Positions 5,356-63,173 of a DNA stretch of 64,000 bases are shown here, one piece after another. The stretch comes from Qipengyuania citrea. GTDB taxonomy: Bacteria > Pseudomonadota > Alphaproteobacteria > Sphingomonadales > Sphingomonadaceae. The DNA lies in contig NZ_JALJZT010000002.1 in NCBI RefSeq assembly GCF_024171405.1, positions 1,922,001 to 1,986,000 on the forward strand, given 5' to 3'. The position numbers were made by a program, and so were the translations under genes. The notes beneath the pieces are model-generated. The model did no database searches. It worked only from the letters and a program-made list of their open reading frames with translations, and had not been told where the DNA came from. Position 1 is the stretch's first letter, and every line of letters starts with the position of its first letter.

Positions 5356-6018
5356 TCATGGCGCGGTGGTTTCCTCCCCCGACGGTATCAAGCGATGCGT
5401 CAACTGGTCCCTCGGAGGCGGTCCGGCGAAGCGTAAGGCCCAGTCGGGATCACCGCGGCGGATTGCCGTGGCCGATCGTTCGTCGGGATCGAAACGCAAT
5501 GTCACCAGTGCCGGTGCGCTCCATTCGCCCCTGTTCACAAAGCTGGACAATGGCACCGAAAAGCGCCGCAGCCAGGCCATCGCGGGGCTCGCGAGGGCAG
5601 CAGCATCATAGCCGGGCCGCGCGATGACTGCAATCGGCATCCTGCGCGCGATGTCGCGCCAGGCTTTCCAGCGGTGGAATTGCGCCAGATTGTCCGCTCC
5701 CATCAGCCACACGAAGTCGTGCTTGGAATAGCGTCGGGTAAGCGCGCCGAGCGTATCGACCGTGTAGCGCGTGCCGAGCTCGCGCTCGATCGCGGTTACG
5801 CGGATCGGGGCGCGCCGTGCCTGCACCATCGCCGAACGCACACGCGCGGTGAGCGGCGCCATCCCCGCCTGCGGCTTGAGCGGGTTCCCCGGCGACACCA
5901 TCCACCAGACCTCGTCGAGCTCGAGCGCGCGCCGAACGAACAGCGAAATTCGCCGATGGCCGCCATGCGCCGGGTTGAAGCTGCCGCCGAGCAGACCGAT
6001 TCGCCGCTTTCCGCGCAT
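5356..6018 (-). CDS. nadD: Nicotinate-nucleotide adenylyltransferase
   Basis: The 220-residue enzyme adenylates nicotinate mononucleotide to deamido-NAD in NAD synthesis. The nucleotidylyltransferase signature GLLGGSFNPAHGGH with its HxGH element is at the N-terminus, and a central FVWLMGADNLAQFHRW segment is typical of NadD. ATG at 6018 (MRGKRRIGLL) is chosen because it puts the signature about 7 residues from the start; an in-frame ATG at 6048 lacks a ribosome site. It heads the minus-strand operon that continues to coq7. Confidence 0.94.
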   Translation of the reverse strand: MRGKRRIGLLGGSFNPAHGGHRRISLFVRRALELDEVWWMVSPGNPLKPQAGMAPLTARVRSAMVQARRAPIRVTAIERELGTRYTVDTLGALTRRYSKHDFVWLMGADNLAQFHRWKAWRDIARRMPIAVIARPGYDAAALASPAMAWLRRFSVPLSSFVNRGEWSAPALVTLRFDPDERSATAIRRGDPDWALRFAGPPPRDQLTHRLIPSGEETTAP

Positions 6019-6273
6019 CAGATTCGGGCCTCGGGAAATTTGTCGCATTTATACAATGACTTGCTGGGCCCAGCCGAGGGAAATCGTAAGCCATTGGTAA
6101 ACCACACTTTAATCTCTTACCCCCGGCCCGAGCCAAAATTTAGCGCGCGCTCAAACGACTCGTCCCACCGATGCTTCGACTCGTAGATTCTACGGGAACC
6201 GCGATTCGATTTCACAAGCAACCTTTGTTAGCTGTCTCAATGGGACATAAGAGACCATAAGGGACGGGTCGTT

Positions 6274-37939: not shown

Positions 37940-38914
37940 CTAGATGTCGCCGCCCGTAAGCCTCTGACAAATAAGGTCTAATTGGTCGAGTGTGCGGAAC
38001 CGGATAGTCACGCTTCCGGTATTGGGCGTCGCGTCGGTAGAGATCTTTACCGGCATCCCGAGAAATTCCTCGAGATGGCTCTGGACCGCGGCGATATCGG
38101 AATTGCCCCCTGTCTCGGGCCTGTCTCCCGATCCGCTCTCGGCGGTCTGCCGGGCGCGCGGCTTGCGGGTGAGCGCTTCCATCTCGCGAACCGAAAGACC
38201 TTCGGAAACCGCTTTCCTCGCCAGTTCGGTCGCCTCTTCGCGGCCGATCAAAGCGCGCGCGTGGCCCATCGACAACGAACCCTCGGCCAAAAATGCCAGG
38301 ATCGTATCGGGTAGTGCGAGGAGGCGCTGGAAATTGGCCACGTGGCTGCGCGATTTGTCGACCAGCTTGGCGATCTCGGCCTGTGTCATACCCTCGTCAT
38401 CGGAGAGTTTCTGATAAGCACGCGCTTCCTCGACAGGGTTGAGGTCCTCGCGCTGGAGGTTCTCGATGAGTGCGAGCGCCATCACCTCGCGCTGGTCCAG
38501 TTCACGCACCAGCGCCGGAATTTCGTGCAATCGCGCCTTCTGCGCCGCCCGCCAGCGCCGTTCACCCGCGACCAGACGGTAACGTCCCCCGCCCAGCGGA
38601 GAAACAATGATGGGCTGGATCACGCCGCGCGACGCGATCGACGACGCGAGCGATTCGAGCGCGTCTTCGTCAAAGCGGCTACGCGGCTGACCCGGCAATG
38701 GCTCGATATCGGCCACGGGGATCGAGGCAAGGCCCTCGGTCGGCGCGGTACGCGACTCGGAATGGTCCGCCGGCAAACTGCCGCCGGAGCCGCTATCCTG
38801 CCGTACGAGCGGTTCTTCGCGGCGCGTCTCTCCCAGCAAGGCACCAAGTCCCTTGCCGAGCTTCTTCTTGCGGTCGATCGTTTTTGCTCCGGTATTCGAT
38901 GCGGTTTCGCTCAT
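37940..38914 (-). CDS. parB: Chromosome partitioning protein ParB
   Basis: The 324-residue CTP-dependent clamp has a flexible N-terminus with KKLGKGLGALLG, the CTP-binding core (about 65-160, with QPRSRF, AGERRWRAA and ENLQRED), the helix-turn-helix (about 165-230, MTQAEIAKLVDKSRSHVAN) and a C-terminal dimerisation domain. It loads at parS and spreads; three parS-type sites lie within the next 4.3 kb upstream. Its ATG overlaps the parA stop by four bases. Confidence 0.96.
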   Translation of the reverse strand: MSETASNTGAKTIDRKKKLGKGLGALLGETRREEPLVRQDSGSGGSLPADHSESRTAPTEGLASIPVADIEPLPGQPRSRFDEDALESLASSIASRGVIQPIIVSPLGGGRYRLVAGERRWRAAQKARLHEIPALVRELDQREVMALALIENLQREDLNPVEEARAYQKLSDDEGMTQAEIAKLVDKSRSHVANFQRLLALPDTILAFLAEGSLSMGHARALIGREEATELARKAVSEGLSVREMEALTRKPRARQTAESGSGDRPETGGNSDIAAVQSHLEEFLGMPVKISTDATPNTGSVTIRFRTLDQLDLICQRLTGGDI

Positions 38915-39702
38915 GCCGCCTTCCTCTTTTCGGGTAGTCGTCCGATCAGCTCGCGCGCGAGACCGATATAGGCGCGGCTGCCCGAGCAGTTGTGGTCATA
39001 GACCAGCGCGGGCATGCCGTGACTGGGCGCCTCGGAAAGCCGTACATTGCGCGGAATCACGCTGTCGAAGACGAGCTTGCCCAGGCAATCGCGCACATCG
39101 TCTGCGACCTGGTCGGTCAGCCGATTGCGCCGGTCGAACATGGTCAGAACGACGCCTACGATACCCAGATCGGTGTTGAACCCCTGCTGCACGCGCTCAA
39201 CCGTCTGGAGTAGCTGGCTGAGGCCTTCCAGTGCGAAAAACTCGCATTGCAGCGGTACCAGAAGCGTGTCGGCTGCGCAGAGCGCGTTGAGCGTCAGCAG
39301 TCCGAGCGACGGCGGGCAATCGATGAAGCAGACTTCGTATCCGGCGAAACTACCCCGCTCCTGCGCCGACAGCGCTTTGCGGAGGCGTGCAGTGCGATCG
39401 ACCACCGACACTAGCTCGACTTCGGCGCCTGATAGATCCTGCGTCGCGGGCACGATATCGAGACCCGGAATGTCGGTCGGCTGTGCACATTCAGCCAAAG
39501 TGGCCTGATCGAGCAGCAAATCGTAGCTGGTGTTTTCACGGTTGGCAGCCGCGATACCCAAGCCGGTGGATGCGTTTCCCTGCGGATCGAGGTCGATCAG
39601 CAGCGTCTTCCAACCCGTGGCAGCCATCGCCGTGGCAATGTTGATCGCGGTGGTGGTCTTGCCCACCCCGCCCTTCTGGTTGGCAATTGCGATCGTGATC
39701 AT
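38911..39702 (-). CDS. parA: Chromosome partitioning ATPase ParA
   Basis: The 263-residue ATPase has the deviant Walker A KGGVGKTT at residue 10-17, LIDLDPQGNAS and FIDCPPSLGLLTLNAL. It binds DNA non-specifically when ATP-bound and pulls ParB-parS complexes. ATG at 39702 overlaps the rsmG stop (ATGA), so rsmG-parA-parB are translationally linked. The order mnmG-rsmG-parA-parB is the classic origin-proximal arrangement. Confidence 0.96.
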   Translation of the reverse strand: MITIAIANQKGGVGKTTTAINIATAMAATGWKTLLIDLDPQGNASTGLGIAAANRENTSYDLLLDQATLAECAQPTDIPGLDIVPATQDLSGAEVELVSVVDRTARLRKALSAQERGSFAGYEVCFIDCPPSLGLLTLNALCAADTLLVPLQCEFFALEGLSQLLQTVERVQQGFNTDLGIVGVVLTMFDRRNRLTDQVADDVRDCLGKLVFDSVIPRNVRLSEAPSHGMPALVYDHNCSGSRAYIGLARELIGRLPEKRKAA

Positions 39703-40334
39703 GCTTTGGCGCTCCACTTGCCGCGTCCGACGATGATTCCCGCTTCGGAATCGGTGTGCGATTGTTCCACGTGAAACATCGCGCGGCGATTCTTGGGCAG
39801 TTCGCTGACTTCTTGCGCTGCCGAACGCCCTTTGGGCAACACCCAGCAGGTGCTCCTTGTGGAGAAGCGCGCCGATAATGTGAGCAAGCGGTCGAGCGGT
39901 GCAAAGGCGCGCGCGGATATCACGCCGGCATCGAATGCTTTGACATTCTCCAGCCTGGTGCCCTCTATCCGGCAGTTTTCAAGGCCCATCAGGCTCACAG
40001 CCCGCGAAAGCCAGTCGACCCGGCGCTTGCGGGATTCCACCAGAACCACCAGCATGTCGGGTTTCATCGCGGCGATAACGAGCCCGGGGAAACCCGCCCC
40101 GCTCCCGAGATCGAGCCATGGCTGTGAGGCTGAGGGGGTGTCACACAGTCCCAGCAATTGCGCCGAATCGGCAATATGCCGCTGCCAGATCTTCGAAAGC
40201 GTGGGTTTGGCGACCAGATTCTGCAGCTGGTTCTCGACCGGAAGCGCCTGTGCGAGGCGGTCGAGGCGATCCATGGCCTCCTCGTCGCACATACCGGCGA
40301 CAAAAGCGCGCGCATCGCTCTCCGAGGAAATCAT
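39699..40334 (-). CDS. rsmG: 16S rRNA (guanine-527-N7)-methyltransferase
   Basis: The 211-residue methyltransferase has the SAM-binding motif [15 protein letters not shown] (about residue 75) and [12 protein letters not shown]. It modifies G527 of 16S rRNA. The ATG overlaps the mnmG stop by four bases. A parS-type palindrome is embedded in its 3' coding sequence, encoding the MFHVEQ segment, so the protein sequence there is shaped by a DNA-binding site. Confidence 0.94.
39763..39778. other. parS site 1 inside rsmG
   Basis: TGTTCCACGTGAAACA matches the 16-base parS consensus (TGTTNCACGTGAAACA) exactly; it is one base from a perfect palindrome. It lies about 60 bases upstream of parA, within coding sequence. 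Confidence 0.9.
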
Positions 40335-42181
40335 GCGGCGCGGTCCAGCTTACGCGCATGCACCAGCAGCGCAGCCAGCGCCGCCGGGGTGATCCCGCGG
40401 ATGCGCCCCGCCGCTGCCAGCGATTCAGGGCGGGCAAGCGACAGTCGCTCGATCATCTCGTTGGAAAGGCCCGGGACCTCGTCGAAGGGGAAGTCGCGCG
40501 GCAGGTGCTGCGCCTCGCTGCTGCGCAGATCGGCGAGCTCGGCGCGCTGACGGGCAAGATAGGGGGCGTAAAACGCATCCTCGGCCATCTCGACCGCGAG
40601 CTGATCGGACGGATCGACACCCTCCATCCACGGCGCGAGCGTTTCGAGAGTGGCATGACCGCCTCCCAGCCATTCGGCGGCCGGGCGCGGACCCGCGTCA
40701 CGTTTCACGTGAAACCCCGCGTCGGACAGGACCTTGGAATGGATCGGCGTCGCAAAGCGCTCGGCGTAACGGTCCCGCCGGTCCTCGCGCCAGGCATACC
40801 ATTCCCGCCGCTCTTCCCCGACCAGGCCACAAGCAACACCCAGCGGCGTGAGCCTGGTGTCGGCATTGCTTGCGCGCAGGCGCAGGCGGTATTCGGCCCG
40901 CGAGGTCAGCATGCGATAGGGCTCGGTGATCCCCTGCAGCGTGAGATCGTCGAGCATGACGGCGATGTAGGAATTGGCCCGATCGAGCGGTGCGGGGGCA
41001 ACGCCCAGCACTGTTGATGCGGCATGCATTCCCGCCATCAGTCCCTGCGCTGCGGCCTCTTCGTACCCCGTCGTGCCATTGATCTGCCCGGCGCAATACA
41101 GGCCCGGGATAGCCCCAAGTTCCAGCCCCGAACTGAGCGCGCGCGGATCGATATGATCGTACTCCACCGCATAGCCGGGTACCGCCATCTCGACCCGGCC
41201 CAAGCCGTCCATCTCGCGCAGCATGGCGAGCTGGACATCGACCGGGAGCGAGGTGGAAATCCCGTTGGGATAAACCAGCGCGGTGTCCAGCCCTTCGGGT
41301 TCGAGGAAGACCTGATGCCCTTCGCGGTCGCCGAAGCGATGAATCTTGTCTTCGATCGACGGGCAATACCGCGGACCGGCGGCGCCGATTGCGCCGGAGA
41401 ATAACGGCGACCGGTCGAGATTGGCGCGGATGATATCGTGCGCGCGCTCGTTGGTCCGCGTGATCGCGCAGAACACCTGCGGATTGCTACGCTCGGTAGT
41501 GAGCGAACTCATCGTCCAGGCTTCGCCATCGGACGGCTGTTCATCGAGCGAGGCCCAGTCGATGGTGCGCCCGTCGAGACGCGGCGGCGTGCCGGTCTTG
41601 AGCCGCCCCATCGGCAAATCCGCCTCGCGCAATTGGGCGGCAAGCCGATGCGCTGCCCCCTCGCCGATCCGGCCACCATCGAAACGCTCTTCGCCCCGGT
41701 AGAGAATACCGCCGAGAAATGTCCCGGTGCACAGGACAACAGCCTTCGCACCAAGAGCAGTGCCGTCCGCCAGTTCCAGCCCCGCGACACGATTTCCGTC
41801 GAACCGGAGCGCTGCCACCTCGCCTGCAATCAGATCAAGCTGCGGCTGCGATTTTACAATCGACTGGACCGCATCATGGAACAGCCGGCGATCCGCCTGC
41901 ACACGCGGACCCCAAACGGCGCTCCCCTTCGAGCGGTTGAGCATCCGGTAGTGGATTGCGGCGGCGTCTGCCGCGCGGCCGATGACTCCATCGAGCGCGT
42001 CGACCTCACGCACGAGATGGCCCTTACCCAGCCCACCGATCGCGGGGTTGCAGCTCATTGCGCCGATCTTATCGAGGTCGAGGCTGACCATACCCGTGCG
42101 CGCGCCCATGCGGGCGGCCGCGCAGGCCGCCTCGACACCGGCGTGACCGCCGCCGACTACAAGGACATCGAGGGTTTGCAT
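40331..42181 (-). CDS. mnmG: tRNA uridine-5-carboxymethylaminomethyl modification enzyme MnmG
   Basis: The 616-residue FAD protein opens with the dinucleotide fold [19 protein letters not shown] and has GTFLGGI, the conserved [11 protein letters not shown] and [17 protein letters not shown] segments and a helical C-terminus. With MnmE it forms the complex that makes (carboxymethyl)aminomethyl-uridine at the wobble position. mnmE lies 60 bases upstream on the same strand with a parS site between. A further parS core lies in its coding sequence. Confidence 0.96.
40702..40715. other. parS core site 2 inside mnmG
   Basis: GTTTCACGTGAAAC is the perfect 14-base inner palindrome of parS; the outermost bases (C and C) depart from the consensus T and A. 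Confidence 0.8.
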
Positions 42182-42225
42182 TGGAGGCGCGCCTTAGCCT
42201 TCGCCCAGACTCGCGTCAAAGTGCA

Positions 42226-42241
42226 TGTTTCACGTGAAACA
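42226..42241. other. parS site 3 between mnmG and mnmE
   Basis: TGTTTCACGTGAAACA is a perfect 16-base palindrome and an exact parS match. It occupies the mnmE-mnmG gap, ending one base before the mnmE stop codon region. Confidence 0.92.
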
Positions 42242-43513
42242 CTACTTGCCGATGCAAAAGCGGCCGAACAGCGCGTCGAGCATCTCTTCGGTCGAATCGC
42301 GACCCACCAACCGATCGAGCGCGCGTCTTGCGCTGCGCAGGTTCTCTGCCGCCACGAGTAGGTCACCCGCGACCTCCACTGCTTCCAGATGTTCGGCTGC
42401 GGCGAGGGCCCATTGCTTCTGCCGACGATTGAACCCGACCTGGTCGACGGGCGGAAGCGCCTCCTTGCCCAAGGCCACCAGAAGGTCCAGCAACTCGCCA
42501 ATTCCGGCACCGGTTACGGCCGATACTTTCAGACCCTCCGCGCCGGGGCAGCTCTCAAGGTCGCTTTTCGAATTGATCTGGATCGACCCGGCGGGCGCCT
42601 GCCCGGGCTCGCCTAGCCACAGGACGATCTGTCCCTCGCCTACAGCACGGCGTGCGCGGGCGATGCCGATCTCCTCAATCATACCCGCCCCTTCCTCGCG
42701 CATACCCGCCGTATCCACGAGGACGAATGGCACCCCGCCGATCGCAATTGGCCGTTCCAGCACATCGCGTGTTGTCCCCGCCTCTGCAGTTACGATAGCA
42801 GCTTCGTCAGCAAGCAACGCATTGAAAAGTGATGATTTACCCGCATTCGGTGGTCCGGCGAGGACGACTCGAATGCCGTCGCGCAGGCGTTCAGCCGCGG
42901 GCTGCCCGGCGATCCGCCTCATCTCTACTGCGAGATCGCCAATTTCGCCTTCAAAAGATGCCGGCAAACCCGCCACATCATCCTCGTCGGCGAAATCGAT
43001 CACCGCTTCCACCGAGGCGGCGAGACCAAGTATCTGCTCGCGCCAGCTCTCGATCTGCCGGGATAGCGCGCCGCCCGCCGAAAGCAGCGCCCCCTTGCGC
43101 TGCAAGTCGGTTTCAGCTGCAAGCAAATCCGCAAGCCCCTCGGCCTCGGCGAGATCGATCCGGCCGTTGCTGAAAGCCCGGCGGGTAAATTCGCCCGGCT
43201 CCGCTTCGCGCAGGCCTTCCATGCGCCCGAGAGCAGCCGCGATCGCGGCTACGACCGCGCGGCCGCCATGGCAGTGAATTTCGGCCAGATCCTCGCCCGT
43301 GGCGGTAGCAGGTCCGGGAAACCACAGTACCAGGGCGACATCGAGCGGCTCGCCCGCACAATTGCGCAAGGTCCGCACGCGCGGCGAGCGCGCCGGGGGG
43401 AGATCGCCCGCCAGCGCGGCCAGCGCATCGCCCGCCTTCGGTCCGCTTATCCGGATGACACCGATCGCCGCCGGCGGTGCCCCGCTCGACAGGGCGAAAA
43501 TCGTATCTTCCAT
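42242..43513 (-). CDS. mnmE: tRNA modification GTPase MnmE
   Basis: The 423-residue protein has the folate-binding N-terminal domain (about 1-115), helical domain, an inserted G domain with GPPNAGKSSLFNALL (about residue 222) and DTAGMREEG, and the C-terminal FCIGK ending that carries the catalytic cysteine. It works with MnmG on wobble uridines. It is somewhat shorter than E. coli MnmE, mostly in loops. Confidence 0.96.
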   Translation of the reverse strand: MEDTIFALSSGAPPAAIGVIRISGPKAGDALAALAGDLPPARSPRVRTLRNCAGEPLDVALVLWFPGPATATGEDLAEIHCHGGRAVVAAIAAALGRMEGLREAEPGEFTRRAFSNGRIDLAEAEGLADLLAAETDLQRKGALLSAGGALSRQIESWREQILGLAASVEAVIDFADEDDVAGLPASFEGEIGDLAVEMRRIAGQPAAERLRDGIRVVLAGPPNAGKSSLFNALLADEAAIVTAEAGTTRDVLERPIAIGGVPFVLVDTAGMREEGAGMIEEIGIARARRAVGEGQIVLWLGEPGQAPAGSIQINSKSDLESCPGAEGLKVSAVTGAGIGELLDLLVALGKEALPPVDQVGFNRRQKQWALAAAEHLEAVEVAGDLLVAAENLRSARRALDRLVGRDSTEEMLDALFGRFCIGK

Positions 43514-49054: not shown

Positions 49055-50080
49055 TCACCCCTTGAAACCGCGCACGGTCGCGAGCAGCCGCTCGACATGC
49101 GCGATTGGCGTCCGGCGGTCGATCCCGTGACCGAGATTGAAGACATGCGGGCGGTCGGCGAAACACTCGAGGATGAAACGTACGCGCCGTTCCAGCCGAT
49201 CGCTTCCCGCAAGCAGCAGCAGGGGATCGAAATTCCCCTGGACCGGCATGTCGCGGGGCAGTTCGCGGGCCGCCCATGCGGGATCGACCGTCTCGTCCAC
49301 ACCGACAGCCTGCACACCCGTCTCGCGGGCATAGGCGGGCAGTTTCTCCCCTGCACCCTTGGGAAATCCGATGATCGGGGTCGCGGGGTGGCGTTCGCGC
49401 AGGGCCGCGACGATCCGCGCATTGGGGGCGATCACCAGACGCTCGAATTCATCGGGGGCCAGGCTTCCTGCCCAGCTGTCGAACAACTGGACCGCTTCCG
49501 CACCCGCCTCGATCTGGCCGGAGAGATAGCTGATCGTCTCGATGGTGATGGCTTCGAGAATGGCGTCGAGCTTGGCCGGATCGCGATAAGCCATCGCGCG
49601 CGCCTCGTGCTGGTCGCGGCTGCCTTCGCCCGCCACCATGTAGGTCGCCACCGTCCACGGGCTTCCCGCAAAGCCAAGCATGGTCACCTCATCGGACAAC
49701 CGCTCGCGGCATAGCCGCACGGTCTGGTAGATCGGCTCGTAGCGACTTTTGTCAGGCGTCAGCCCCGCCAGAGCGGCATCGACCAGCGGCGGTGACAGCT
49801 TCGGCCCCTCGCCTGCGAGAAACTCGAGATGCTGCCCCAGCGCATGCGGGACGATCAGGATATCGGAAAACAGGATCGCCCCGTCGAAACCGAAGCGGTC
49901 GATCGGCTGCAAGGTGATCTCGCAAGCCGCTTCGCTGTCATAGGCCAGCGCGAGGAATCCGCCCTTTTCGGCGCGTAACGCCCGGTATTCGGGCAGATAG
50001 CGACCCGCCTGCCGCATGAGCCAGAGGGGCACGCGATCGGCACGTTTGCCGTTCAGCGTATCGAGCAGGAGACCGGGCAT
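49055..50080 (-). CDS. hemE: Uroporphyrinogen decarboxylase
   Basis: The 341-residue enzyme converts uroporphyrinogen III to coproporphyrinogen III. The substrate signature MRQAGRYLPEYR is near residue 25, and FSDILIVPHALGQ and FDSWAGSL are intact. ATG at 50080 gives the family start; an upstream TTG is unlikely. hemE bordering the replication origin is characteristic of Caulobacter and Rickettsia. Confidence 0.95.
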   Translation of the reverse strand: MPGLLLDTLNGKRADRVPLWLMRQAGRYLPEYRALRAEKGGFLALAYDSEAACEITLQPIDRFGFDGAILFSDILIVPHALGQHLEFLAGEGPKLSPPLVDAALAGLTPDKSRYEPIYQTVRLCRERLSDEVTMLGFAGSPWTVATYMVAGEGSRDQHEARAMAYRDPAKLDAILEAITIETISYLSGQIEAGAEAVQLFDSWAGSLAPDEFERLVIAPNARIVAALRERHPATPIIGFPKGAGEKLPAYARETGVQAVGVDETVDPAWAARELPRDMPVQGNFDPLLLLAGSDRLERRVRFILECFADRPHVFNLGHGIDRRTPIAHVERLLATVRGFKG

Positions 50081-50358
50081 CTCTGAGTCCAATCTAATAA
50101 ATAATAGTATTTATAAAGAGGTTGTAGGTGTCTGTTGGCCCTGTGGATTTCAGGGATAAGTGGCCCCTGCCCGATTTCTCCCCCTCTGCAAAGGGTCGAG
50201 GCCGGTTGCCGACTCGCCGCCGGCTGTGAGTCGAGTCAAACTTATCCCTGCTATGCCCACCCCTGCGCAAAACTCGGATTTGGTGTGCGGGAATCGGCCC
50301 GTGAAGGACTCGTTCCGGGGAGGGTTTTTGCTCCCGAACTTGTCGCCAGCTTTCTCCC
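50081..50358. other. Candidate chromosomal replication origin oriC
   Basis: The 278-base gap lies between divergent hemE (minus) and the PPDK regulator (plus), the Caulobacter/Rickettsia oriC position. From 50091 to 50117, 25 of 27 bases are A or T, a likely unwinding element. DnaA-box-like 9-mers TTATCCCTG occur in opposite orientations at 50151-50159 (minus) and 50242-50250 (plus), with a weaker TGTGGATTT beside the first and TTCTCCACA at 50375-50383. Six GANTC sites, targets of the CcrM methylase, occur at 50085, 50211, 50228, 50233, 50291 and 50307. A hairpin spans 50312-50339. Confidence 0.8.
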
Positions 50359-51243
50359 GTGGTTTATGCCCCCGTTCTCCACAGGCCGCAGGACCTCGCC
50401 ATCGCCAACCGCGTCCATCTCCATCTGTTGTCCGATTCCACCGGCGAAACGCTCGAAATGCTCGCCAAGGCGGCGCTTGCGCAATTCGAGGATGCCGATG
50501 TCATACGGCATTTCTGGCCGATGGTCCGCAGCCGCCAGCATCTCGAGCGGATCCTGCCCGAACTCAAGGACAATCCGGGCCTCGTCCTGTTCACGCTGGT
50601 CAATCCGGATACGCGCAACCGGCTGGAGGAAGCCTGCACCCAGCTGGGCTTGCCAGCGGTACCCATTCTCGACCGGGTGACCGAAGCGCTCGAAAAAGCG
50701 CTGGGCCAGGAAGCGCATGGCCGGCCGGGGCGCCAGCACGCAATGGACCAGGCCTATTTCAACCGGGTCGAGGCGATTCAGTTCACCATCGCGCATGACG
50801 ACGGGATCGGCTGGGAAGAATGGGAAGAGGCCGATATCCTGCTGGCGGGCGTGTCGCGCAGTTCGAAAACCCCGACGAGCATCTATCTTGCCAATCGCGG
50901 TTACAAGGTCGCCAATATCCCGCTGGTGGTCGAAAGCCCGCCGCCGCCCAAGCTGTTCGAACTCAAGCATCCGATGATCGTGGGGCTAACCACCGCGCCC
51001 GAACGGCTGGTGCAGATCCGCCGCAACCGCCTGCTTACGCTCAATGAGGAACGCGAGACCGACTATGTCGATGGCGAGCGGGTCAAGGGCGAGGTCAAGT
51101 TCGCCCGGCGGATGTTCGCCGACAATGGCTGGGCGGTGATCGACGTGACGCGCCGCTCGATCGAGGAAACCGCCGCGGCGGTGATCCGCTTGTATAACGA
51201 GCGTTCGGCAAGTGGCAGCTCGCAGGGATCCAAACCGATATGA
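50359..51243 (+). CDS. Pyruvate phosphate dikinase regulatory protein (kinase/pyrophosphorylase)
   Basis: The 294-residue DUF299 protein has [16 protein letters not shown] near the N-terminus and the P-loop-like [18 protein letters not shown] (about residue 170). Family members reversibly phosphorylate and inactivate pyruvate phosphate dikinase or PEP synthase. The GTG at 50359 lacks a ribosome site, so the true start may be a little downstream. It is the first gene right of the origin, matching the Caulobacter order. Confidence 0.9.
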
Positions 51244-51845
51244 GTGACCTTGGTGGTAGCGGGATCGTGCTCGCCTCGAACAGCGCGTCGCGCAAGGCGA
51301 TGCTGGAGGCGGCGGGGATTGCCTTCGAAGCCGAAGGTGCCGCAGTCGACGAACGCGCGCTCGAAGCCGAGATGGAGGGCGCCGAGCCTGCCGAGATCGC
51401 GCAGGCGCTGGCCGCGGCCAAGGCGGCAGCCCTATCCGCCGCGCGGCCCGATGCGCTGGTGCTGGGTTCGGATTCGCTGGTCGAGGTCGACGGCAGGCGC
51501 TTCGACAAGCCGGCCAACCGCGACAATGCGGCCGAACATTTGCGGTTCTTCTCGGGCAAGGCAATGACCCTGCATAGCGCAGCGGCGCTTGCGCGCGGGG
51601 GCCAGATCGTCTGGGTCGGCTCCGATTTTGCGCGGCTGCGCGTACGCGACCTCAGCGAGGACTTTATCGCCGCCTATCTCGATGCCGAATGGCCCGCCGT
51701 ATCCTATTGCGTCGGCGTGTTCCGGATCGAGGGGCCCGGCGTGCAACTGTTCGAGAGTATTGCGGGCGACCAGTTCACCGTGCTCGGCATGCCCCTGCTC
51801 CAAGTCCTCGATGCACTGCGCGGCGAAGGGGCGCTCGCTTCGTGA
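51240..51845 (+). CDS. maf: Maf family nucleotide pyrophosphatase
   Basis: The 201-residue protein has [17 protein letters not shown] (variant of the ASxSPRR motif), the SDSLVEVDG segment and [12 protein letters not shown]. Maf proteins hydrolyse modified or canonical nucleoside triphosphates (house-cleaning) and affect septation. ATG overlaps the previous stop by four bases. Confidence 0.92.
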
Positions 51846-52696
51846 CGGACTATGTCGAAGTGATCGGCGATCCGATCGCCCAATCCAAATCGCCCGTCAT
51901 CCACGGGCTGTGGATCGAGAAGCTCGGGCTCGCTGCGGAATACCGTGCCACGCGTGTCGAAGCTGCGGGGCTGGAGGACTATCTCGCCGCGCGCCGCGAG
52001 GACGCCGCCTGGCGCGGATGCAATGTCACCATGCCGCACAAACAGGCCATCATGCCGCTGCTCGACCGGCTCGAACCGCTGGCGAAGCGCGTCGGTGCGG
52101 TCAATACGGTCGTGAAGACCCCCGACGGCCGGCTGGTCGGACGCAATACCGATGTCGCCGGGTTCCTAGAGCCGCTGGCGCAGCGGCTTGGCGAGCAGCA
52201 CTATTTCCGCATGGCGCGCGTGCTGGGCACTGGCGGTGCCGCGCGCGCGATCGTTACCGGGCTGGCGCGCGAAGGGTTCCGCATCGTGCTTGCCGGTCGC
52301 AATACCGACAAGGCGCGCGCGCTGCTGGAGGAACTCGATCCCGACGGCGAACACCATGTCGCGCCGCTCGATCATTTCGCGCAGACGACCGATTTCGCCT
52401 TCGATGATCGCGAGGGATGCTGCGACCTGGTCGTCAACGCCTCGCCGCTCGGCATGCGCGGCCAGCCCGCCCTCGCCTTCGACTGGAGCCATGCCCCACC
52501 GGGTTCGATCGCCTATGATATCGTTACCGATCCGGTCGCTACGCCATTTCTGGAGAATGCCCGCGCCGCCGGGTTCCAGACCATCGACGGGTTCGCCATG
52601 CTGATCGGTCAGGCAGCGGCGGCGTTCGAACATTTCTTCGGTGTGGCCCCGCCCCGTGAATACGATTCGACGCTGCACGAAAGGCTGGCGGCATGA
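51842..52696 (+). CDS. aroE: Shikimate dehydrogenase
   Basis: The 284-residue enzyme reduces 3-dehydroshikimate with NADPH. It shows [23 protein letters not shown] and the Rossmann loop [10 protein letters not shown] (about residue 133). The start is a GTG at 51842 overlapping the maf stop (GTGA). It overlaps coaE by four bases. Confidence 0.95.
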
Positions 52697-53307
52697 CCCG
52701 CCCACTGATCGTCGGCCTCACCGGTTCCATCGGCATGGGCAAGTCGACTGTCGCCGCGATGTTCGAGGCTGCGGGTGTGCCGGTATTCGATGCCGATGCC
52801 GAGGTGCGCGCGATGCAGGGCCCCGGCGGTGCGCTGGTTCAGGCAATCGAAGCTGCCTTTCCGGGGAGTACCGATGCAGGCGGCGTCTCGCGGGAGAAAC
52901 TCGGTGCGCTGGTGTTCGGCAATCCGCAGGAATTGGCTCGGCTCGAAGCGATCGTCCATCCCGCGGTGGCGGCGCAGCGCGAGGCGTTCCTGATCGAACA
53001 TGCCGGCGCGCCGCTGGTGGTGTTCGATATCCCGCTCTTGTTCGAGAAAGGCGGCGCCGAAGCGGTCGACCGCGTGGTGGTCGTCTCCGCCCCCGCCGAA
53101 GCCCAACGCCGCCGCGTGCTGGCCCGCCCCGGAATGACCGAAGAAAAGTTCGCGCATATTCTCGAACTGCAGACCCCCGATTCGGAAAAACGCGCGTGCG
53201 CGGACCACATCATCGACACCGGGACTTCGGTCGAAGAGACCGAAGACGAGGTCCTCGCGCTGATCGCGGAACTGCGCGGTGTCATACCCGCGCGCCAATC
53301 GCTGTAA
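52693..53307 (+). CDS. coaE: Dephospho-CoA kinase
   Basis: The 204-residue kinase adds the last phosphate in CoA synthesis. It has Walker A GLTGSIGMGKSTVAAMF (residues 8-24), DADAEVRAM and VVFDIPLLFE. It continues the coupled maf-aroE-coaE run and is followed by dnaQ after 41 bases. Confidence 0.95.
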   Translation: MTRPLIVGLTGSIGMGKSTVAAMFEAAGVPVFDADAEVRAMQGPGGALVQAIEAAFPGSTDAGGVSREKLGALVFGNPQELARLEAIVHPAVAAQREAFLIEHAGAPLVVFDIPLLFEKGGAEAVDRVVVVSAPAEAQRRRVLARPGMTEEKFAHILELQTPDSEKRACADHIIDTGTSVEETEDEVLALIAELRGVIPARQSL

Positions 53308-53348
53308 CCCCCTTGTAATCTGGCCCCGCGGCGCCGATAGGAGTGGTG

Positions 53349-54044
53349 ATGCGCGAGATCGTGTTCGATACCGAAACCACCGGCCTAGACCCCAAGACCG
53401 GGGACCGGATGGTCGAGATCGGCTGCATCGAGATGGTGAATCTCGTTCCGACCGGCGCGAGCTACCACGCTTACTTCAATCCGGAACGTGACATGCCCTC
53501 GGGCGCCGAGGCCGTACATGGCCTGTCGGCGGCATTCCTGTCGGACAAACCGCTGTTTCGCCACCTCGCCGCAGAACTGCTCGAATTTATCGGCGATTCG
53601 CCGCTGGTGGCGCATAATGCCGGGTTCGATTTCGGGTTTCTCAATACCGAGTTGTCGCTGTGCGAACTGGCCCCCATCTGCACCAGCCGGATGGTCGATA
53701 CCGTCGCCTTGGCACGCAAGCGGCATCCGGGGGCCAAGCTCTCGCTCGACGCGCTGTGCTCGCGCTACGGGATCGATCGCAGCCACCGCGTCAAGCACGG
53801 TGCGCTGCTCGATGCCGAACTGCTGGCGCAGGTCTATGTCGAGCTCAAGGGTGGGCGGCAGATCGGCCTCGAACTGGCGGCGGAGGTCGCATCCGCCGGA
53901 CTCGTCCAAGCCGCCGATTTCCCCGCAGTGCGCCAGGCCCCGTCGGGGCCGCGCCGCCAACCGCGCCCACACCATGCCAGCGCCGCGGAACTGGCGCGGC
54001 ATCGCGAATTCATGACCGGGATCGAGAACCCCTTGTGGGGCTGA
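53349..54044 (+). CDS. dnaQ: DNA polymerase III epsilon subunit (proofreading exonuclease)
   Basis: The 231-residue 3'-5' exonuclease has the DEDDh motifs: FDTETTGLDP (Exo I), VAHNAGFDFGFLN (Exo II) and HRVKHGALLDAELLA (Exo III, with the His). A C-terminal basic tail should contact the polymerase alpha subunit. AGGAG lies five bases before the ATG at 53349; GTG codons just upstream are in frame. It is near the origin, as in Caulobacter. Confidence 0.94.
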   Translation: MREIVFDTETTGLDPKTGDRMVEIGCIEMVNLVPTGASYHAYFNPERDMPSGAEAVHGLSAAFLSDKPLFRHLAAELLEFIGDSPLVAHNAGFDFGFLNTELSLCELAPICTSRMVDTVALARKRHPGAKLSLDALCSRYGIDRSHRVKHGALLDAELLAQVYVELKGGRQIGLELAAEVASAGLVQAADFPAVRQAPSGPRRQPRPHHASAAELARHREFMTGIENPLWG

Positions 54045-61646: not shown

Positions 61647-63173
61647 ATGAGCGACATGACCGTCATCAGTGAAAACGACCTGATCGAGAGCGTTGCCGAC
61701 GCGCTCCAGTATATCTCCTATTACCATCCGATGGACTATATCCGAGCGCTGGGCGAGGCCTATGAGGCCGAGAAGGGCCCCGCTGCCAAGGATGCGATCG
61801 CGCAGATCCTCACCAACAGCCGGATGTGCGCCGAGGGGCACCGCCCGCTGTGCCAGGACACCGGGATCGTCAACGTCTTCGTCAAATGGGGGATGAACTG
61901 CCGGCTCGACAGTACGCGCTCGCTGCAGGACGTCGTCGATGAGGGGGTGCGCCGCGCCTACAACCACCCCGAAAACAAGCTGCGCGCCTCGATCCTCGCC
62001 GATCCCGCCTTCACCCGCCGCAACACGCGCGACAACACGCCCTGCGTCCTGTCGGTCGAAATGGTGCCCGGCAGTACGGTTGAAATCGACGTTGCCGCCA
62101 AGGGCGGGGGCAGCGAGAACAAGTCCAAGTTCAAGATGATGAACCCGAGCGACAATATCGTCGACTGGGTGATCGAGCAGATTCCCTCGATGGGTGCGGG
62201 TTGGTGCCCTCCGGGAATGCTCGGCATCGGCATCGGCGGCACCGCGGAGCATTGCGTGAAGCTGGCGAAGCAGAGCCTGATGGATCCGATCGACATGGGC
62301 CAACTCAAGCAGCGCGGCGCACAGAACGATATCGAGCAATTGCGCATCGACATCTTCGACGCGGTGAATGCCATGGGGGTGGGCGCGCAGGGCCTTGGCG
62401 GACTTGCCACCGTGCTCGACGTGAAAATCCTCGACGCGCCCTGCCATGCGGCGGGCAAGCCGGTGGCGATGATCCCCAATTGCGCCGCTACGCGCCATGC
62501 GCATTTCACGCTCGACGGCTCGGGACCCGCCTATCTCGAGCCGCCCAAGCTGGACGATTATCCGCAAGTGACCTGGCAGCCCGACAGCGCCGCCCGGCGC
62601 GTCGATCTAGGCACGTTGACGCCGGCGGAAGTGGAAAGCTGGAACCATGGCGACCGCCTGCTGCTGTCGGGCAAGATGCTGACTGGGCGCGATGCCGCGC
62701 ACAAACGCATCAAGGACATGCTGGATGCAGGCGAGGAGTTGCCGGTCGAGTTCAAGGGGCGCGCGATATACTATGTCGGTCCGGTCGACCCAGTGATGGG
62801 CGAAGTCGTCGGTCCGGCCGGCCCCACCACCGCCACGCGGATGGACAAGTTCACCGACATGATGCTCGACCTCGGGCTGCTCGCGATGATCGGCAAGGCC
62901 GAGCGCGGCCATGATGCGGTCGAAGTAATCAGCCGGTTCAAGGTCGCCTACCTCATGGCGACCGGCGGGGCGGCCTATCTCGTCAGCCGCGCGATCAAGG
63001 GCGCGGAAGTGGTGGCTTTCGAGGACTTGGGGATGGAAGCGATCTACGAATTCGAGGTCCAGGACATGCCCGTAACGGTCGCGGTCGATGCGGCGGGCAA
63101 CAATGTCCACACGCTCGCGCCTGCCGAATGGCGACGCCGCATTGCTGCTGGAAATCTCGAACCTGCGGAATAA
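61647..63173 (+). CDS. Fumarate hydratase class I
   Basis: The 508-residue enzyme interconverts fumarate and malate with a 4Fe-4S cluster. Cysteine ligands appear in LCQDTGIVNVFV and further along (NCAATRHAHF; CHAAGKP), with the C-terminal domain MDPxDMGxxKxRGA-type segment and GPVDPVMGEVVGPAGPTTATRMD in part. ATG at 61647 (MSDMTVISEND) is chosen with GGGAA upstream; an earlier in-frame ATG adds 19 residues. It should be oxygen-sensitive, so erpA in this window is relevant. Confidence 0.93.
   Translation: MSDMTVISENDLIESVADALQYISYYHPMDYIRALGEAYEAEKGPAAKDAIAQILTNSRMCAEGHRPLCQDTGIVNVFVKWGMNCRLDSTRSLQDVVDEGVRRAYNHPENKLRASILADPAFTRRNTRDNTPCVLSVEMVPGSTVEIDVAAKGGGSENKSKFKMMNPSDNIVDWVIEQIPSMGAGWCPPGMLGIGIGGTAEHCVKLAKQSLMDPIDMGQLKQRGAQNDIEQLRIDIFDAVNAMGVGAQGLGGLATVLDVKILDAPCHAAGKPVAMIPNCAATRHAHFTLDGSGPAYLEPPKLDDYPQVTWQPDSAARRVDLGTLTPAEVESWNHGDRLLLSGKMLTGRDAAHKRIKDMLDAGEELPVEFKGRAIYYVGPVDPVMGEVVGPAGPTTATRMDKFTDMMLDLGLLAMIGKAERGHDAVEVISRFKVAYLMATGGAAYLVSRAIKGAEVVAFEDLGMEAIYEFEVQDMPVTVAVDAAGNNVHTLAPAEWRRRIAAGNLEPAE

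Follow-up and report, generated by a model that had tools for sequence, protein, structure and literature searches.

The gap between hemE and a divergent gene for a PPDK/PEP-synthase regulatory protein in Qipengyuania citrea raises the question of whether this stretch holds the origin of the chromosome and, if so, where it ends. We analyzed 64,000 bp of DNA, hereafter the window, which corresponds to positions 1922001-1986000 of contig C2 (2,886,391 bp), one of three contigs in the genome. Features are given in window coordinates, with the strand in brackets where a feature has one. A first-pass annotation had read positions 50081-50358 as the chromosome origin, lying between divergent genes. 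Domain matches bear out the flanks, with hemE (uroporphyrinogen decarboxylase, URO-D; 49055-50080, -) on one side and the regulator gene (DUF299/Kinase-PPPase, PF03618; 50401-51243, +) on the other. The regulator protein shares 95% identity with its Q. citrea counterpart, which agrees with placement in Qipengyuania (Erythrobacteraceae). The left edge of the interval also stands: hemE starts with an ATG on the complement of 50078-50080, and this start is ATG in all 37 same-genus genomes that were aligned. The right edge should shift to 50400, because the regulator gene probably starts at 50401. The gap therefore runs from the hemE start to the likely true start of the regulator gene, spanning 50081-50400, or 320 bp. 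Downstream of the regulator, maf (51240-51845, +), aroE (51824-52696, +, with its start taken as annotated), coaE (52693-53307, +) and a dnaQ-type gene with an exonuclease domain (53343-54044, +) follow in the order that had been claimed. Along the window, the genes are arranged as rho, a UPF0093 gene that we take to be hemJ, hemE, DUF299, maf, aroE, coaE, the dnaQ-type gene and HPF.

The annotation had also stated that Caulobacter and Rickettsia have their origins in this gap, flanked by hemE and DUF299 (COG1806), and this is the layout given in PMC1914354. Most Sphingomonadaceae origins have likewise been located at hemE (PMC4741004). The gap in our window resembles Cori of Caulobacter crescentus in its hemE-DUF299 position, its AT-rich patch and its putative DnaA boxes (PMC1914354). 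Unlike Cori, which has five CtrA sites, it contains no TTAA, and dnaA is 556 kb away. It is also similar to oriC of Sphingopyxis granuli TFA and to the Sphingomonadaceae origins in DoriC, which lie by hemE and have conserved putative DnaA boxes and a duplex-unwinding element (PMC4741004), but S. granuli is of a different genus.

To place the origin on the chromosome, we used cumulative GC skew, which had been proposed as a check of the earlier reading. A 36-point sample gave a broad minimum at 1.69-2.01 Mb and, taken alone, fitted the G-C break best at 1.69-1.77 Mb, which misses the gap by 0.2-0.3 Mb. In the same sample, the switch in polarity of GGGNAGGG was fitted best at 2.01-2.17 Mb, and the eight best fits also include 1.93-2.01 Mb. 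Because this sample was too coarse, 580 kb around the gap were read contiguously; with the sample of the rest, the data cover about 40% of the chromosome. Within the contiguous 580 kb, the minimum lies at window position 62049, with a near-tie at 50674, where the cumulative value is only 6 bases higher. The trough is shallow, as 10-kb bins over 1.91-2.03 Mb end between -972 and -1151. Given this breadth and shallowness, skew alone locates the origin only to about 0.1 Mb. In a relative (G014), DNA with 96% identity to the gap lies at 2.185 Mb, and the lowest of 20 cumulative skew samples from this genome is at 2.10 Mb (-225); its sample at 2.52 Mb is almost equally low (-210) and is itself strongly negative. 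The E. coli-type dif core, at up to 3 mismatches, had no match, so the terminus was placed by skew alone. One sampled stretch (L019) was considered as a low-GC island and rejected, since it contains 5000 masked bases and has 63% GC without them.

The chromosome partitioning locus lies in the same neighborhood. The genes parB (37940-38914, -) and parA (38911-39717, -) sit with rsmG, mnmG and mnmE in 37940-43513, all named from their translations. Three parS sites accompany them, one with 1 mismatch at 39764-39777 and two that are exact, at 40702-40715 (GTTTCACGTGAAAC) and 42227-42240. All of these parS, parA and parB elements are 8-12 kb from the gap, and the two exact parS sites are 8-9 kb away. 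Elsewhere in the genome, with up to 1 mismatch allowed, parS has a single further match (1 mismatch; C2:471857-471870), which lies close to the likely terminus at a distance of roughly 1.4-1.5 Mb from the origin.

Inside the gap, a patch of 25 A/T in 27 bases at 50091-50117, noted previously, proved to be the AT-richest 27-mer of the window. No 27-mer with 25 A/T was present in 58 sampled chromosome stretches (1.144 Mb with 5 kb masked, the gap itself being left out), and its composition makes the patch a likely duplex-unwinding element. It is AT-rich across aligned relatives with individual letters that vary; since the letters differ among relatives, a reading of the patch as DnaA-trios was set aside. 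The count of six GANTC (CcrM-type) sites was exact. They occupy 50085-50089, 50211-50215 (GACTC in 32 and GAATC in 5 of 37 genomes), the adjoining pair GAGTCGAGTC at 50228-50237 with sites starting at 50228 and 50233 (whole in 34 of 37 genomes), 50291-50295 and 50307-50311. Across the window and the 58 sampled stretches, six GANTC fall within 274 bases at only one other place, window 5998-6203, so the cluster in the gap is rare, not unique. This second cluster surrounds the start of a nadD-like gene and is upstream of an M23-peptidase-like gene (both names read from translations).

The DnaA-box-like 9-mers were the weakest element of the first-pass annotation. Compared with the consensus TTATCCACA, the interval 50081-50358 has none at zero or one mismatch and one at two, and a perfect box is absent from the whole 64-kb window. 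The best putative box, TTCTCCACA (1 mismatch; 50375-50383, +), falls beyond the former end at 50358, and its TCCACA is present in 35 of 37 genomes. A second putative box, AAATCCACA (2 mismatches; 50142-50150, -), keeps its TGTGGA core in 37 of 37. This conservation of the cores supports the assignment of both boxes. Additionally, two copies of TTATCCCTG, which is loosely DnaA-box-like (3 mismatches), are inverted partners at 50151-50159 (-) and 50242-50250 (+); at least 27 of the 37 genomes have CTTATCC, CTTGTCC or CTTCTCC at the start of the 9-mer aligned to the latter. A conserved block of TTGTCG-17-TTTATG at 50340-50368 (+; TTTATC in 15 of 37) is a possible promoter of the regulator gene. 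A consensus promoter scan of 50060-50460 called no promoter, so the promoter at this block is one that we infer.

These features are shared across the genus. Gap DNA was matched in all 37 same-genus genomes, our own included, with the shortest match covering about half of the gap, and in none of 24 genomes of other families. Over the 37 gaps, GANTC sites average 6.59 per gap (range 4-8) compared to 1.57 in shuffled sequence, TCCACA cores 2.00 compared to 0.13, and DnaA boxes at up to 1 mismatch 1.24 compared to 0.04. TTAA averages 0.14 compared to 0.78 when shuffled, a total of five. Two TTAA never occur in one gap, so none of the 37 has a full TTAA-N7-TTAA CtrA site, as judged from exact TTAA half-sites. 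The missing sites fit with Sphingomonas melonis, which tolerates loss of CtrA with its growth unharmed. We then surveyed more widely the 700 bases upstream of the regulator gene, for which 19 of 22 other-family loci could be anchored. At least five GANTC were present in 9 of 17 loci from the family's other genera, in 39 of the 65 named loci that are more distant and in 1 of 19 other-family loci; for at least two TCCACA/TGTGGA cores, the respective counts were 15 of 17, 64 of 65 and 13 of 19. Because gap DNA matched none of the 24 other-family genomes and a single other-family locus reached five GANTC, the GANTC-rich form belongs to this lineage. Two matches to N6/N4 methyltransferases (PF01555), a strong one at C2:931 kb and a weaker one at 733 kb, are candidates for a CcrM-like enzyme.

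The proximity of parS, parA and parB, the matches in 37 of 37 genomes and the enriched sites narrow the skew trough of about 0.1 Mb to the gap. Together with the trough, they support the earlier reading of the gap as the chromosome origin, and from these sequence features we put the probability that the main chromosome begins its replication at 50081-50400 at about 0.95. In kind, this origin is of the hemE/DUF299-linked alphaproteobacterial type, which is known and ordinary. DnaA boxes can serve gene regulation, and the gap might be only a divergent promoter region in which CcrM and DnaA regulate transcription of hemE and the regulator, with replication starting elsewhere, for example near dnaA at C2:2.528 Mb. 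The GANTC cluster at the promoter-like gap 5998-6203 would suit this idea, which is nevertheless very improbable, as the skew trough is at the hemE gap and not at 2.53 Mb, parS and parAB are close to the gap, and dnaA is reported as not conserved near the origin in this order. An origin in another gap of the same neighborhood, for instance around window 62 kb, the site of the strict minimum within the broad trough, is barely credible given the near-tie at 50674, the window's strongest AT patch in the hemE gap, its only six-GANTC clusters at 6 kb and in that gap, and the known or predicted origins of relatives in the hemE gap.

At an origin in the hemE gap, DnaA would bind the conserved TCCACA boxes and perhaps also the TTATCCCTG pair, the AT-rich patch beside hemE would unwind, and forks would depart bidirectionally. 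ParB on the parS sites 8-10 kb away would separate the new origins, and the state of the GANTC sites, fully or half methylated by a CcrM-like enzyme, probably signals whether the origin was recently copied. DnaA may also damp the regulator gene through the box at 50375, which has the promoter-like block on one side and the start of that gene on the other.

The right edge of the gap depends on where the regulator gene starts. An ORF finder chose the GTG at 50359, and in the 37-gap alignment the N-terminus of the regulator is inconsistent with that choice. The likely true start is an ATC at 50401-50403 (+), which follows an AGGA at 50390-50393. We anchored codon positions on the HLHL motif in 59 congeneric genomes (a sixtieth had no protein match). 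Codon -5 is ATC (21), ATT (18) or ATA (6) in 45 of them, and never ATG in these; within the gap alignment, ATH is found there in 29 of 37 genomes. The other 14 of the 59 have GTG (12), TTG (1) or ATG (1) at -4 or -5. There is no ATG, GTG or TTG within eight codons upstream in 36 of the 45 AUH species. When the comparison was widened to the best 80 of 188 named loci, the nearest 14 (L166-L179) had ATH and the next, L180 from Q. marisflavi, had GTG. A canonical start is close by in 63 of the 65 more distant named loci (72-80% identical). The two exceptions, L235 and L243 from Alteripontixanthobacter and Pseudopontixanthobacter, have no ATG, GTG or TTG within 17 codons of HLHL, which points to a long extension of the N-terminus or to a further unusual start. 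Separately, one genome (G013), whose assembly is 75% complete, carries a second regulator gene, 73% identical, on a small contig (C202, L294), which is perhaps contamination.

Across 391 pairs of ATH species, difference rates at the three codon positions are 0.45/0.51/0.49 over the seven codons before the ATH, 0/0/0.58 at the codon itself and 0.10/0.01/0.26 after it. The onset of codon-periodic rates at the ATH indicates that coding constraint begins there. Shine-Dalgarno pairing has a mean of -4.39 kcal/mol before the ATH, compared to -0.55 for the closest canonical codon upstream in the frame and -1.67 for random places. Pairing of -3.5 kcal/mol or better is found in 78% of the 45 AUH species and at 24% of 900 random places, and in the species of the window its value before the ATC is -4.0. 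Since nine of the 45 species offer a canonical codon no more than five codons upstream, both tests were rerun on the other 36 and came out alike, giving 0.48/0.53/0.51 before, 0/0/0.60 at and 0.10/0.01/0.25 after the codon, with pairing of -4.5. In a tree built without the start codon, a 100/99 branch separates the 45 ATH rows plus a GTG row (G018) from the 13 other canonical rows. Changes on this tree number 16 for all seven labels and 11, 9 and 3 for ATC, ATT and ATA, or 6, 4 and 3 on well-supported branches only, so the third base has changed repeatedly.

The regulator could instead have a longer N-terminus, starting at GTG 50359 here and at an upstream GTG, ATG or TTG in other species, in which case ATC, ATT and ATA, all of which encode isoleucine, would be ordinary codons of the protein. 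GTG 50359 is the choice of the ORF finder, the open frame extends upstream, and in each of the 45 AUH species an ATG, GTG or TTG stands in frame somewhere above. The pairing before these upstream codons is nonetheless weaker than at random, and the frames differ among species, with the distance to a conserved block modulo 3 splitting the 45 into 22, 13 and 10. The nine species with a canonical codon nearby (GTG three codons up in five, GTG or TTG five up in four) are the best ground for a longer protein: in the five, GTG and ATC are preceded by equal pairing (-2.5 and -2.3, respectively), and in G015 the upstream codon has the better pairing (-6.8 compared to -5.8). One AUH species (G121) also has a GTG four codons downstream. 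Codon periodicity, however, is absent upstream and present downstream, including in the 36 species with no such codon near, and in the sister clade a GTG, TTG or ATG occupies this codon or the next. Codon usage was a further consideration, as ATT makes up 18 of the 45, above the isoleucine usage of the gene (P 7e-4, from sequences that are not independent). ATA is not significantly over-used (P 0.09), and with pair counts that are not independent, this test adds little. A longer N-terminus is unlikely. The strongest arguments are the frame changes upstream and the abrupt beginning of constraint, and we consider it probable, on comparative grounds, that the regulator gene starts at an AUH codon, ATC 50401 in this genome, and not at GTG 50359. 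Weak, IF3-sensitive translation would be expected from such a start.

The gene infC, which encodes the factor that polices such starts, serves as a positive control for the AUH reading of the regulator. It was matched in 58 of 60 genomes, in our own at C2:1.414 Mb, and we read 30 loci. All 30 have GGAGA followed by ATA where the N-terminal stretch of the protein begins. An ATG is found eight codons downstream of the ATA, and infC may start there. In four loci (L313, L322, L326 and L327), a stop lies shortly upstream, with no canonical codon between it and the ATA. Because GGAGA-ATA coincides with the N-terminal onset and some loci have these upstream stops, AUA is likely the infC start in this genus.

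Known IF3-controlled near-cognate starts include AUU in infC of E. coli, AUC in infC of Streptomyces and GUC in sigR of Streptomyces (PMC5472188), and the AUA of infC here would parallel the first two. As in infC and sigR (PMC5472188), the start that we read for the regulator is outside ATG, GTG and TTG, conserved in the genus and easily misassigned upstream. It differs in that the gene encodes a PPDK regulator at oriC, the codon has drifted between T, C and A at its third base, and IF3 control is a prediction. Among the matches listed in the open-licence PMC literature, judged by title or the opening of the abstract, we found no report of a near-cognate start for the PPDK regulator or in this genus. 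Set against an ordinary and well-supported origin, the probable near-cognate start is the surprising part of this locus.

The origin provides a zero point for the coordinates of this genome and of the genus. As a hemE-type origin with many GANTC and no full CtrA site, it is useful for understanding how replication is timed without CtrA at the origin. The AUH start, if real, would be a rare conserved near-cognate case beyond infC, would mean that ordinary gene finders likely misplace the start of the regulator, and would offer a simple test of IF3 control over metabolism. More tentatively, this regulator gene, the leader of which is within oriC and includes a DnaA box, may have acquired an AUH start once and retained it in most of the genus, its third base drifting since among U, C and A. 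Given the apparent AUA start of infC as well, a switch of central carbon metabolism would then come under IF3 at the level of translation and, by way of oriC, under DnaA and the timing of replication.
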